Shown here: positions 32,280-36,882 of the stretch, piece by piece
Numbering within the stretch: the first letter of the stretch is position 1
Layout of the letters: each line of letters starts with the position of its first letter
Source: Chromohalobacter moromii
Lineage (GTDB): Bacteria; Pseudomonadota; Gammaproteobacteria; Pseudomonadales; Halomonadaceae
Length of the DNA: 64,000 nucleotides
Reading direction: 5' to 3'
NCBI RefSeq assembly: GCF_023091865.1
Contig: NZ_JAHXDI010000004.1
Location: 248,001-312,000 of the forward strand
The notes under the pieces: generated by a model
What the model saw: only the letters and a program-made list of their open reading frames with translations
Told to the model about the DNA's origin: nothing
Database searches by the model: none
Translations under genes and position numbers: made by a program

Positions 32280-32356
32280 AGGACCGTAGCTCAGTTGGTT
32301 AGAGCGCCACGTTGACATCGTGGAGGTCAGCGGTTCAAATCCGCTCGGTCCTACCA
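32280..32356 (+). tRNA. tRNA-Val (anticodon GAC), first copy
   Basis: A 77-base tRNA with encoded CCA. The acceptor stem AGGACCG pairs with CGGTCCT and the anticodon loop contains GAC. It is identical to the copy at 32474. Confidence 0.97.
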
Positions 32357-32473: not shown

Positions 32474-32550
32474 AGGACCGTAGCTCAGTTGGTTAGAGCG
32501 CCACGTTGACATCGTGGAGGTCAGCGGTTCAAATCCGCTCGGTCCTACCA
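32474..32550 (+). tRNA. tRNA-Val (anticodon GAC), second copy
   Basis: Identical over all 77 bases to the first copy, 117 bases downstream of it, and followed by an intrinsic terminator. No separate promoter is evident, so the two are likely one transcript. Confidence 0.97.
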
Positions 32551-33170: not shown

Positions 33171-33998
33171 TTACTTCCAGCCGGGAACCGCGGCGCCCTT
33201 GAACAGTTCGTCGGCCTTATCGATGACCGCTTGCGACTGATACGCCTTGACCAGGTTCTGGATCGCCTCGTCATCCTGCTTGCCTTCGCGCGTCACGATC
33301 AAGTTGACGTACGGCGACTCGGGACCTTCCTTGATCAGCGCGTCATCGAGGCTGAGGCCCGCCGGCTGGGCGAAGGTATTGTTGATGAAGGCTAGGTCGA
33401 CATCGGGCAGCACGCGCGGCAATTGCGCGGCTTCGATCTCGCGGAACTCATAGTCATGCGGGTTGTTGCTGATATCCACCGGTGTCGCTTCGAGATTTTT
33501 CGGATCGTCGAGCTCGAGCAGTCCTTCATTGTGCATCAGAATCAGCGAGCGCCCCTCGTTGGAAGGGTCATTGGGCAGTGCGATGGTAGCCCCGTCGGGT
33601 ACATTAGCGATGTCGTCGTAGCGTTCGGAATATGCGCCGATCGGGTAGACGAAGGTCTTGCCGGCGATGGTGAAATCGTAACCGCGATCCTCGACCATAC
33701 TATTCAGGTACGGCTCATGCTGGAAGGCATTGGCATCCAGGCTGCCGTCGGCGAGGGCGGCATTGGGTGAGACGTAGTCGGTGAACTCGACGATTTCAAC
33801 ATCGAGGCCGTATTCGTCCTTAGCGATTTGCTTGGCGACTTGCATGACGTCCGTTTCCGGACCGGCCACGGTGCCTACCTTGATCGACTGCGTCTCGGCA
33901 TCGTCGCTGCCGCAACCGGCGATCAGGCCGGCGCCCAGTAGTGCCGCGGCACCGAAGAGACGCACGGGGTGTAAGGCTTGGGCCAGAGTATCGTTCAT
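33171..33998 (-). CDS. metQ: Methionine ABC transporter substrate-binding lipoprotein
   Basis: A 275-residue NlpA-family lipoprotein. The lipobox LIAGC places the lipidated cysteine at residue 29. The family segments VGTVAGPETDVMQVAK, FTDYVSPNAAL, DANAFQHEPYL and ALPNDPSNEGRSLILM are present, the latter two lining the methionine site. It is the third gene of metNIQ and captures methionine in the periplasm for MetI/MetN. Confidence 0.96.
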   Translation of the reverse strand: MNDTLAQALHPVRLFGAAALLGAGLIAGCGSDDAETQSIKVGTVAGPETDVMQVAKQIAKDEYGLDVEIVEFTDYVSPNAALADGSLDANAFQHEPYLNSMVEDRGYDFTIAGKTFVYPIGAYSERYDDIANVPDGATIALPNDPSNEGRSLILMHNEGLLELDDPKNLEATPVDISNNPHDYEFREIEAAQLPRVLPDVDLAFINNTFAQPAGLSLDDALIKEGPESPYVNLIVTREGKQDDEAIQNLVKAYQSQAVIDKADELFKGAAVPGWK

Positions 33999-34122: not shown

Positions 34123-34776
34123 TCATTTGTGGTCGGCCTTGCGTACGAGACGATCACCAAGGCTTTGAAAGCCTTGCACCATGACCACCAGTATCGCCAC
34201 CGTGATGAGCATGATCAGCGGTTCGAAACGGTTGTAGCCGTAACGAATGCCCAGGTCACCCAGGCCACCACCACCGACGGCACCGGCCATGGCCGAGTAG
34301 CTGACCAGCGTGACCACAGTGATAGTAAGGCCGTTGATGATGCCGCCCTTGGCTTCCGGTAGGAGCACCTTGGTGATGATCTGTAGCGGGGTGGCGCCCA
34401 TCGCTTGGGCGGCTTCGATGAGTCCCGGTGGAATCTCGTTGAGGGCGCCTTCGACCAGGCGTGCGACGAAGGGAATCGCGGCGATGATGAGCGGTACGAT
34501 GGCGGCGTTGGTGCCGATGGAGCTGCCAACGACGAGGCGCGTGAAAGGGATGATCGCCACCATGAGAATGATGAAGGGAATCGAGCGGCCGATATTGGTG
34601 ACGATTCCCAGTACGCGTTGGGCGGCTGGCTGTGCGAGGATCTGTCCCGGCCGCGTGACATAAAGCAGAACCCCGAGGGGGATACCGATCACGGCCGAGA
34701 CTGCACCTGACAGGGCGACCATATAGAGGGTATCGAAAGTGGCCTCGAGAATCAGTTCAAGCATTGCGCTGGACAT
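34123..34776 (-). CDS. metI: Methionine ABC transporter permease
   Basis: A 217-residue inner-membrane protein with five hydrophobic segments. The EAA loop that contacts MetN is EAAQAMGATPLQIITKVLLPEA-like, near residues 120-141. The start overlaps the end of metN by 20 bases, typical for this operon. Length matches E. coli MetI. Confidence 0.96.
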   Translation of the reverse strand: MSSAMLELILEATFDTLYMVALSGAVSAVIGIPLGVLLYVTRPGQILAQPAAQRVLGIVTNIGRSIPFIILMVAIIPFTRLVVGSSIGTNAAIVPLIIAAIPFVARLVEGALNEIPPGLIEAAQAMGATPLQIITKVLLPEAKGGIINGLTITVVTLVSYSAMAGAVGGGGLGDLGIRYGYNRFEPLIMLITVAILVVMVQGFQSLGDRLVRKADHK

Positions 34777-35800
34777 GGCCGAGTACCTCTACATTGATAT
34801 CGTGGGATTCGAGTTGCGAGAGCGCTTGTGACGTCGTCTCGGGCGTGCCGATGAGCTCGGCGATCATCAGGCCTAGCGTGCGCCCCTGGATCGACTCCAC
34901 TTTGGCTTGCAGGATGCTGACATCGACGCCGCTATCGCGTGCCAGGCGCGAAATGAGCGGCGTGGCGACATTGGCGCCAGAAAACGCCAGGCGTACCACG
35001 GGATGTGTATGCTCGCCGGGGGCTTCCTCAAGCCGCTCGACCAGCGCCTGCGGTGGCTCGAGCTCGAGAAAGGCGTTGAGAAAATCGCGTCCCAGCCGTG
35101 TGGCCGGTGCGGTGAAGAAATCGCCGACGTCGGCTTCTTCCACTAGTTCGCCATCCGAGATCAGGCCGACACGGTGGCAGATGCTCTTGACCACTTCCAT
35201 CTCATGCGTAATGAGCAAAATGGTCAGCCCCAGCTTACGGTTGATGTCCTGCAGCAGCTCGAGGATCGAGGCCGTCGTCTGTGGGTCGAGGGCGGACGTC
35301 GCCTCATCGCAGAGCAACACCTTGGGACGGCTGGCGAGGGCGCGTGCGATGGCTACACGCTGTTTCTGCCCCCCGGAGAGTTGCGCCGGGTATTGCGTGG
35401 CCTTGTCGGTTAGGCCCGTGAGATCGAGCAACGGCCTGATACGCTCGCGAATCTCGCCTTTCGATACGCCCATCAGCTCCAGCGGCAGCGCCACATTGTC
35501 GAAAACCGTGCGCGAGGCGAGTAGATTGAAATGCTGGAAAATCATGCCGAGCTGATGGCGCGACTGCCGCAGAGCTTCGCTGTCCTGCTGGGTCAAGTCC
35601 TGGCCGTCGACGATGACATGGCCCTCGGTCGGGCGCTCGAGGAGGTTGACGCAGCGAATCAGCGTCGACTTACCCGCGCCAGAGAGGCCGATCACGCCAT
35701 GGATGGCGCCCTTCGGGACTTCCAGGTCGATATTTTTGAGGGCATGGACCGCCGTGGGGCCAGCCCCATAGGTTTTGGAGACACCTTCGAGTTTGATCAT
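34757..35800 (-). CDS. metN: Methionine ABC transporter ATP-binding protein
   Basis: A 347-residue ABC ATPase. Walker A GLSGAGKST is near residue 39, the signature is LSGGQKQRVAIARAL, Walker B is VLLCDEATSALD, and the switch histidine is in LLITHEMEVV. The C-terminal about 95 residues form the NIL/ACT-like domain through which methionine trans-inhibits MetN. The leader upstream contains a SAM-II riboswitch and terminator. No strong Shine-Dalgarno is seen before the ATG. Confidence 0.97.
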   Translation of the reverse strand: MIKLEGVSKTYGAGPTAVHALKNIDLEVPKGAIHGVIGLSGAGKSTLIRCVNLLERPTEGHVIVDGQDLTQQDSEALRQSRHQLGMIFQHFNLLASRTVFDNVALPLELMGVSKGEIRERIRPLLDLTGLTDKATQYPAQLSGGQKQRVAIARALASRPKVLLCDEATSALDPQTTASILELLQDINRKLGLTILLITHEMEVVKSICHRVGLISDGELVEEADVGDFFTAPATRLGRDFLNAFLELEPPQALVERLEEAPGEHTHPVVRLAFSGANVATPLISRLARDSGVDVSILQAKVESIQGRTLGLMIAELIGTPETTSQALSQLESHDINVEVLGHVQRNA

Positions 35801-35963
35801 CGTCTTCGTTTGGGTCGATGCGTTGGGACGTCATGGCCAGTGGCACGCCAGCGACCGTTGGGGATCGAAGCTTGTATGCCTGGAGTGGCGTCGCATGTGG
35901 CAAAACCCAGCATTATAACGAGACTGGACTGCCTATGTGGCGGGATTTGTAGGCTGTGGCCAT

Positions 35964-35990
35964 AAAAAAAGGCCACCCAGGCGGGTGGCC
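35964..35990 (-). terminator. Terminator of the metN leader (riboswitch expression platform)
   Basis: On the minus strand GGCCACCC and GGGTGGCC form an 8-bp perfect stem with loop GCCT, followed by TTTTTTT. It ends 164 bases before the metN start and follows the SAM-II aptamer by 15 bases. CACCC of the left arm (35987-35983) is complementary to GGGTG, the 3' pseudoknot strand of the aptamer, so the two can compete. Confidence 0.9.
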
Positions 35991-36004
35991 ATCAACGCTG
36001 GACA

Positions 36005-36072
36005 CACCCTTTTAGCGGTATTTCCCGGGACATGCCCGGGCGCGCCCGCAATCTGGGTACAAATCGGCGCTC
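36005..36072 (-). promoter_or_regulatory. SAM-II riboswitch aptamer upstream of metNIQ
   Basis: The minus-strand RNA has the order of SAM-II conserved words: stem GCGCC (36070-36066), GAUUUG, ACCC (36058-36055), AUUGC, returning stem GGCGC (36046-36042), then AAAUA and GCUAAAA, ending in GGGU (36009-36006). ACCC and GGGU form the pseudoknot. A 6-bp extra hairpin (CCCGGG-CAUGU-CCCGGG, 36040-36024) is inserted between P1 and the 3' strand, a known type of extension. Position in front of a methionine importer fits repression by S-adenosylmethionine. Recognition is by pattern only; no covariance-model score was computed. Confidence 0.85.
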
Positions 36073-36084
36073 AAGAAGTCGCGA

Positions 36085-36113
36085 ATTCTAGTGAGCGCTT
36101 CGATACCTGTCAA
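36085..36113 (-). promoter_or_regulatory. Promoter of the metNIQ leader
   Basis: On the minus strand a perfect TTGACA (36113-36108), a 17-base spacer and TAGAAT (36090-36085, 5 of 6). The predicted start is near 36078, just before the aptamer, so the whole riboswitch would be in the transcript. Confidence 0.85.
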
Positions 36114-36267
36114 TGTCTCTAGGCCAAGTGTCGGCAATCAAGGGATTGATTTAGAAAGATCGCCTGTTTTTAGGGGTTTGAAAGGTATAGGTGCCTGACG
36201 ATGGGCGTCGATGGGTCATGATAGAATGATGCCTATCGAGCGTGACAGCATTGGTCAAGGAGTCGAG

Positions 36268-36882
36268 ATGTTTACCGGTATCGTGCAAGGCGTGGGGACG
36301 GTGGTAGCCGTGGAGGAGGAAACGCAGTTCCGGCGCCATGTCGTGACGTTTCCCGAGGGCATGGCGGATGGGCTCGAAACCGGTGCCTCGGTGTCGCACA
36401 ACGGGTGCTGCCTGTCGGTGACTCGCATCGAGGGCGATCGAGTGTCCTTCGACCTGATGCGTGAAACATTGCGCCTCACTAACCTGGGGGCGCTAAGCGT
36501 TGGCGATCACGTCAATCTCGAGCGTGCTGCACGCATCGGTGACGAAATTGGCGGCCATGCGATGTCCGGCCACGTTATCTGTCAAGCGGCCCTGGATGAA
36601 CTCGAAGAAGCGCCGAACAATCGTCGCCTATGGTTTGCGTTGCCCGACGAGCATGCGCGGTTCTTGTTCGAAAAAGGCTATATTGGCGTCGATGGCATCA
36701 GCTTGACGATCGGCGCGCTCGAAGGTGGGCGTTTCTGTGTCGACCTGATACCCGAGACATTGATGCGCACAACGTTGGGTGAGCGCATGCTTGGCGACTG
36801 GGTCAATATCGAGATCGACCCGCAGACCCAGGCCATCGTCGAAACGGTCGAGCGGGTCATGGCGGCGCGAGGCACGGTATGA
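36268..36882 (+). CDS. ribE: Riboflavin synthase, alpha chain
   Basis: A 204-residue enzyme that dismutates two lumazine molecules to riboflavin. The N-terminus MFTGIVQG is diagnostic, and two homologous barrel domains are visible, with SHNGCCLSVTRI in the first and GVDGISLTIGAL in the second. AAGGAG lies before the ATG at 36268. It is divergent from the metN leader. No FMN riboswitch is seen upstream. Confidence 0.96.
   Translation: MFTGIVQGVGTVVAVEEETQFRRHVVTFPEGMADGLETGASVSHNGCCLSVTRIEGDRVSFDLMRETLRLTNLGALSVGDHVNLERAARIGDEIGGHAMSGHVICQAALDELEEAPNNRRLWFALPDEHARFLFEKGYIGVDGISLTIGALEGGRFCVDLIPETLMRTTLGERMLGDWVNIEIDPQTQAIVETVERVMAARGTV

Follow-up and report, generated by a model that had tools for sequence, protein, structure and literature searches.

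The window analysed here is a 64-kb stretch of the genome of Chromohalobacter moromii (family Halomonadaceae), and our subject is the leader that precedes metNIQ, the genes of a methionine ABC transporter. All three genes lie on the minus strand: metN (34757–35800) codes for the ATPase (Pfam ABC_tran and NIL), metI (34123–34776) for the permease (BPD_transp_1) and metQ (33171–33998) for an NlpA/MetQ lipoprotein (Lipoprotein_9). On the other side of the leader is a riboflavin synthase gene on the plus strand (Lum_binding; open reading frame 36211–36882). Because this neighbour is divergent, the promoter and the terminator found in the leader belong to metNIQ, and for the same reason a terminator of an upstream gene is ruled out. 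Judged by sequence comparison, the element at 36113–35964 is a real and conserved variant of the SAM-II riboswitch for S-adenosylmethionine (SAM).

Direct reading of the minus strand bore out the initial annotation, which had listed a near-consensus promoter, all SAM-II landmarks in order and a seven-U intrinsic terminator 5' of metNIQ. The sigma-70-type promoter (36113–36085) consists of TTGACA (36113–36108), a spacer of 17 nucleotides (nt) and TAGAAT (36090–36085), matches the consensus at 11 of 12 bases and is the only promoter-like site returned by a pattern scan of 35700–36300, where shuffled sequences average 0.6; transcription would be expected to start at about 36078. The 5' arm of helix P1 (GCGCC, 36070–36066) is followed by L1, GAUUUG (36065–36060), the third strand of the ligand-binding triplex, then by UACCC (36059–36055, of which ACCC 36058–36055), the 5' strand of the outer pseudoknot helix P2a, and by GAUUGC (36053–36048; ATTGC at 36052–36048), whose UUGC is the 5' strand of the inner pseudoknot helix P2b. 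The 3' arm of P1 (GGCGC, 36046–36042) was placed by sequence and family alignment. Next comes an inserted hairpin, P3 (CCCGGG-CAUGU-CCCGGG, 36040–36024). The stretch 36023–36010 comprises the A-rich end of L3, AAAUACC (36023–36017), and GCUAAAA (36016–36010), the 3' strand of P2b with its ligand contacts. GGGUG (36009–36005), complementary to UACCC, is the 3' strand of P2a and, from family alignment and folding, the proposed 5' strand of an antiterminator. A linker, UGUCCAGCGUUGAU (36004–35991), separates the aptamer from the terminator (35990–35964), which has a stem of eight base pairs (bp) and a 4-nt loop, GGCCACCC-GCCT-GGGTGGCC (35990–35971), followed by seven U (35970–35964). The same kind of scan of 35700–36300 found this one terminator-like site, against 0.3 in shuffles. 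As annotated, metN starts at 35800, 205 nt downstream of GGGTG, a distance that rules out translational masking in this leader.

For comparison, 90 loci of the family (L006–L095) were collected: the 30 best BLAST matches to the window leader and 60 picked by hand from the same list, a sample biased toward window-like leaders. Setting aside four loci that are broken or lack the terminator (L052, L068, L069 and L071) and three identical copies (L010, L021 and L028) left 83 distinct leaders, 45 of which were aligned (alignment A1). The bases that we take, from structure 2QWY, to contact SAM hardly vary among the 83: GATTT is present in all of them and the next G in 80, TTGC in 81–82 and GCTAAA in 82–83. 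Parsing required GATTT, GCTAA and GGG in each row and so favours conservation; such a motif was missing in a single locus of the 90, L068. The best promoter match within 70 nt upstream reaches 9–11 of 12 bases in every one of the 83 leaders, a figure obtained without a shuffle control. The terminator stem is paired in 100% of the cells of the 45 aligned leaders, with both-side changes in one of its eight pairs.

The Rfam SAM-II model (RF00521, SAM_alpha), suggested by the initial annotation as a check, fails on this leader. Its gathering cut-off is 36 bits; the window leader scores 13.3 bits (E = 2.1), with only 36070–36042 covered, and this shortfall, taken by itself, argues against a SAM-II assignment. 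Nothing was found with RF00521 at gathering level in the whole window; a search of the entire genome, with gathering as well as relaxed thresholds, likewise gave no match to this locus, and the Rfam scores of isrD, Phe_leader and suhB there fall on the terminator. The score is so low because of P3, which is inserted between P1 and the AAAUAC-GCUAAA strand. Orthologous metN leaders that have no insert reach 47.8 (L048), 36.9 (L040), 29.6 (L051) and 25.4 bits (L038) with the same model. Among 20 family loci, it otherwise gave weak matches to L069 (21.4 bits) and L052 (20.6 bits) and none at E ≤ 5 in 14, all of them hairpin-bearing except the broken L068; two of 61 family genomes exceed the cut-off.

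A second model, R2, was built without any Halomonadaceae sequence, its 37 SAM-II aptamers all belonging to other families (alignment A2). They come from 42 loci (L106–L125 and L134–L155), less four without the motif and one identical copy; 20 had been found by RF00521 in the class and 17 in the order by R1, a model of the family's own leaders. The best R2 match in the 64-kb window is 36070–36042 (28.7 bits, E = 1.1e-5) and the second best 36034–35999 (13.7 bits, E = 0.08). The two matches correspond to the aptamer halves that flank P3, adjacent and in order; across the whole genome (3.47 Mb) they are the best and the third-best match (E = 5.9e-4 and 4.4). The insert-free leaders L048, L040, L051 and L038 score 43.7–60.7 bits with R2. 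Together with the RF00521 scores of L048 and L040, the R2 matches flanking P3 uphold the identity first proposed. The leader has the P1 stem, complementary pseudoknot strands, the conserved ligand-site motifs GAUUU, UUGC and GCUAAA and a methionine target; it does not reach the RF00521 gathering score and it carries a P3 helix. Because the score falls short of what is a threshold for detection, and the insert explains why, we file the element as a SAM-II variant. The absence of P3 is a described property of SAM-II, not its definition (PMC6061858).

The initial annotation had noticed P3 as an extra hairpin in the aptamer. A hairpin-sized insert that folds as such occurs in 79 of the 83 leaders and is absent from four; L037, L077 and L086 are predicted to fold somewhat differently. 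In the 45 aligned leaders 86.8% of the P3 cells are paired and 87 cells have changed on both sides, giving a covariation score of 0.606 versus 0.164 for shuffled partners (0 of 500 shuffles as high) and at most 0.198 when the strands are slid. P3 lies directly 3' of P1, between P1 and the A-rich strand. The seven nucleotides that precede GCUAA, which read AAAUACC in the window and AAGUGCA in most leaders, match the L3 end of insert-free SAM-II elsewhere, and AAAUAC-GCUAAA is also present in insert-free SAM-II of other families. The L3 end having been kept, P3 therefore replaces the four to six nucleotides with which L3 begins. In SAM-V a P3 stem-loop occupies the same place, and behind it stacked adenines face the minor groove of P1; the authors who describe this state that SAM-II has no P3 (PMC6061858).

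This shared position is what could suggest a SAM-II-descended pseudoknot in which the insert has changed the ligand or created a SAM-V-like translational switch. We consider such an outcome very improbable. Five bp are possible in P2a, the number found in most SAM-II, versus 2 bp in SAM-V (PMC6061858); the contact positions are unchanged, the target is a methionine transporter, the start codon is far from GGGUG, and SAM-V is absent from the seven Rfam matches at E ≤ 10 at the locus.

R1 matched 157 of 201 family genomes at E ≤ 1e-6 and 169 at E ≤ 0.01, counts that include the genera used for training. Six of the 12 weaker matches have no SAM-II motif and were counted false (L315, L317, L319 and L321–L323), L316, L318 and L320 are SAM-II, the last not a metN leader, and in G016, G017 and G037 RF00521 has a match before a metN-like gene. 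Once false matches are dropped, at the cost of two genera, the leader is found in 20 of 24. metN follows in 85 of the 90 loci; the remaining five all belong to one genus (g3, read as Salinicola). There the gap between leader and metN is about 7 kb in the six genomes compared and 1.2 kb in G077, and in G119 (L300, G119:C1:634300-642300) the intervening genes look by eye like rut genes of pyrimidine breakdown. The detached leader exceeds 100 bits in four of 18 sampled genomes of this genus, scores lower in five and has no match in nine.

Beyond the family, R1 matched 20 of 293 genomes of the order. Among the 22 loci concerned, 18 are insert-free SAM-II and four have no motif, so that under these strict filters no P3-type SAM-II was seen outside the family; the class was searched with the Rfam model alone, which misses P3 types. 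In that wider search RF00521 matched 117 of 369 genomes at E ≤ 0.001, with 30 over the cut-off, the class Gammaproteobacteria in GTDB including the former beta-proteobacteria. The initial annotation had seen novelty in SAM-II occurring in a gammaproteobacterium and in its coupling to a terminator. With these counts that view does not stand, and both points are in print: the former in PMC2258182, PMC1273637 and PMC2704228, and terminators as the common case in PMC2258182, PMC9373788, PMC9481103 and PMC6061858. Nine proteins near SAM-II elements other than the family's metN leaders comprise three metN-like proteins, one metK, three Cys/Met enzymes dependent on pyridoxal phosphate, one AAA protein and one without a match. 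Tandem SAM-II aptamers were also encountered. L320 (1501-1675 and 2719-2781) has three R2 matches (71.6, 47.8 and 46.2 bits), its first aptamer being followed by a terminator ahead of short open reading frames and a 218-residue protein without a Pfam match; L098 has two, with an AzlC-like protein (by eye) downstream, and L324–L326 and L331 were grouped with these loci.

By comparison with related leaders, the SAM-II core, P3, the terminator, the promoter and the metNIQ target are established; SAM binding, the direction of control and the antiterminator are what we infer. In all likelihood the element turns methionine uptake off at the level of transcription, and we think it likely that it works as a SAM-II variant with P3 directly 3' of P1, switching metNIQ off in response to SAM through attenuation. 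In the SAM-bound state the pseudoknot would hold GGGU(G) against UACCC, the terminator would have no competitor and the transcript would end at the U run. When SAM is scarce, GGGUG would pair with the CACCC of the terminator 5' arm as this emerges, with CCA:UGG behind it; the terminator would be delayed and metNIQ made. Attenuation, as first proposed, thus remains the likeliest mode of control. The same proposal's GGGTG:CACCC switch fares less well: the pairing is present in 98.3% of cells, no pair has changed on both sides, and because it is invariant the antiterminator is deduced rather than demonstrated. P2a (UACCC:GGGUG), the terminator and the possible antiterminator are all nearly invariant because they share GGGUG and CACCC. 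Folding by length gives GGGUG:CACCC in the window a mean pair probability of 0.50 when CACCC emerges and of 0.97 eight nucleotides later, with the terminator 3' arm still incomplete; at emergence it is 0.79–0.99 in seven of 12 leaders and 0.27 in L051. The antiterminator alone has a free energy of -10.6 kcal/mol versus -16.8 for the terminator and can therefore act only in a kinetic window before the terminator completes.

Several results weigh against this account. The missing both-side changes are one. Another is that the antiterminator stays at or below 0.02 at every length in three of the 12 leaders (L016, L044 and L089) and is just 0.37–0.58 eight nucleotides past CACCC in L040, L051, L075 and L031, while at full length the terminator is present in all 12. 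In some lineages the aptamer precedes metN without a U-run terminator, so that terminator attenuation is not universal in the family. The call for covariation in relatives was answered for P1, where two of six pairs have changed on both sides in the family (four of six in SAM-II of other families), but only in part for the pseudoknot. In a fixed register, 27 of 3000 shuffles scored as high as P2a for all 48 sequences and 39 of 3000 for seven family members; among the 37 SAM-II of other families 1373 of 3000 did, so that P2a is indistinct from shuffled partners, and the free-register permutation gave no support (839 of 2000, 49 sequences). Only contiguous helices were scored, and a bulged P2a would escape.

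The presence of the terminator in every full-length fold would also suit a leader that attenuates constitutively, or mainly yields a short terminated RNA, with SAM of little effect. Small RNAs do arise from SAM-II leaders in Sinorhizobium (PMC9373788), and the Salinicola-like leader exceeds 100 bits in some genomes despite lying about 7 kb from metN. The other 14 of those 18 genomes, however, have a lower-scoring leader or no match; moreover, few positions are better conserved than the ligand contacts, and metN is next in nearly all loci. We therefore find this explanation improbable.

The linker is conserved like the ligand site, 12 of its positions, TGTCCAGCGTTG, each being kept in 78–83 of the 83 leaders. 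L308, L309 and L311–L313, in which the aptamer before metN is kept, lack both the linker and the U-run terminator; because the linker is lost along with the terminator while the aptamer stays, it belongs to the expression platform. SAM-II aptamers before metN without a U-run terminator or the conserved linker were also seen in L101, L104 and L316. Candidate partners of the linker are CCA:UGG of the antiterminator, GCU/GGG with UCC/AGC, and the P1 5' arm with GAU (GCGUU:AGCGC and GUC:GAU); none shows covariation. The last two raise the possibility, which we consider less likely than not, that SAM-II acts on the terminator through an apo state other than GGGUG:CACCC, the linker pairing elsewhere as an anti-aptamer or a pause hairpin. 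In the window the pairing with the P1 arm is the minimum-energy fold while CACCC has yet to emerge and again in the full-length leader, GCU/AGC is the pairing chosen by RNAalifold, 97.8% and 99.6% of cells pair for the two, and the linker is kept in leaders without UGG (L038 and L051). On the other hand, the GCU/AGC stretch folded alone yields only -0.9 kcal/mol in the window, and neither pairing blocks the terminator by itself, so that neither alone gives SAM-dependent OFF control. GGGUG:CACCC is retained in the preferred scheme of attenuation.

In the C. moromii genome, no SAM-I element was found at E ≤ 1 and no MetJ over the cut-off (best 13.2 bits versus 25), which makes the leader a candidate for the methionine control of this genome. 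Elsewhere in the window, two tRNA genes of identical sequence lie about 120 nt apart on the plus strand (32280–32353 and 32474–32547).

The riboswitch class and the mode of control are already known. As far as our searches extend, the novelty lies in a family-wide SAM-II that bears a P3 like that of SAM-V and is beyond the reach of Rfam, in its metNIQ target and in the almost unvarying linker ahead of the terminator. The initial annotation overlooked the most distinctive points: P3 at the SAM-V place, the spread through the family, the cause of the Rfam miss and the linker. With 13 bits in the window versus 48 for an insert-free orthologue, P3-bearing SAM-II falls in a blind spot of detection; P3 lowers the Rfam score, and Rfam-based surveys such as PMC4239095 would therefore miss it. 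That survey, of about 200 proteobacterial genomes, reports SAM_alpha only in Rhizobiales and Rhodobacterales and none in 12 Oceanospirillales and various gammaproteobacteria, and its main text does not name Chromohalobacter. It also describes a beta-proteobacterial metXZ element, a pseudoknot and terminator before metX or metZ, which might be a SAM-II missed by Rfam. On SAM-II together with metN, the literature yielded this survey and PMC12452182, in which the metN entry of a table is for Bacillota. In the open-licence literature, which is weak evidence, no paper was found that links SAM-II with Halomonas or Chromohalobacter, and the six combining riboswitch and Chromohalobacter were off-topic by title.

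Compared with SAM-II as described under RF00521, the leader has the same P1, GAUUUG, UUGC, A-rich L3, GCUAAA and pseudoknot, a promoter close upstream and a methionine gene downstream, as well as a terminator, the majority case in print (PMC2258182, PMC6061858); it differs in its score below the Rfam threshold, its metNIQ target and its platform of linker and GGGUG. The Sinorhizobium metZ SAM-II likewise has a terminator predicted to form upon SAM binding, but belongs to an alphaproteobacterium and a biosynthetic gene, and the available text on it does not mention P3 (PMC9373788). Closer by gene are L137, L140 and L143 from other families of the order, where SAM-II precedes a metN-type gene (ABC_tran and NIL), with a U-run terminator in L140 and L143; they have no P3 and another platform sequence. 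SAM-V shares the stem-loop P3 directly after P1, the A-rich strand behind it and a SAM-II-type binding core (PMC6061858). In its solved structure P3 has 3 bp, and its 2-bp P2a masks a ribosome-binding site, whereas here P2a may reach 5 bp and a terminator follows; the leader thus has the P3 of SAM-V, but neither a 2-bp P2a over the ribosome-binding site nor a match to the Rfam family. It is conceivable, though we would not count on it, that SAM-II elements with P3 link SAM-II structurally to SAM-V and have gone unannotated family-wide, and that the linker is a separate functional module, an anti-aptamer strand or a programmed pause, which determines the moment in transcription at which SAM is sensed. 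In nature the same gene is preceded by SAM-II leaders of both kinds, some carrying P3 and some lacking it, and such pairs should help in studying the role of P3 in SAM-II as well as in SAM-V.
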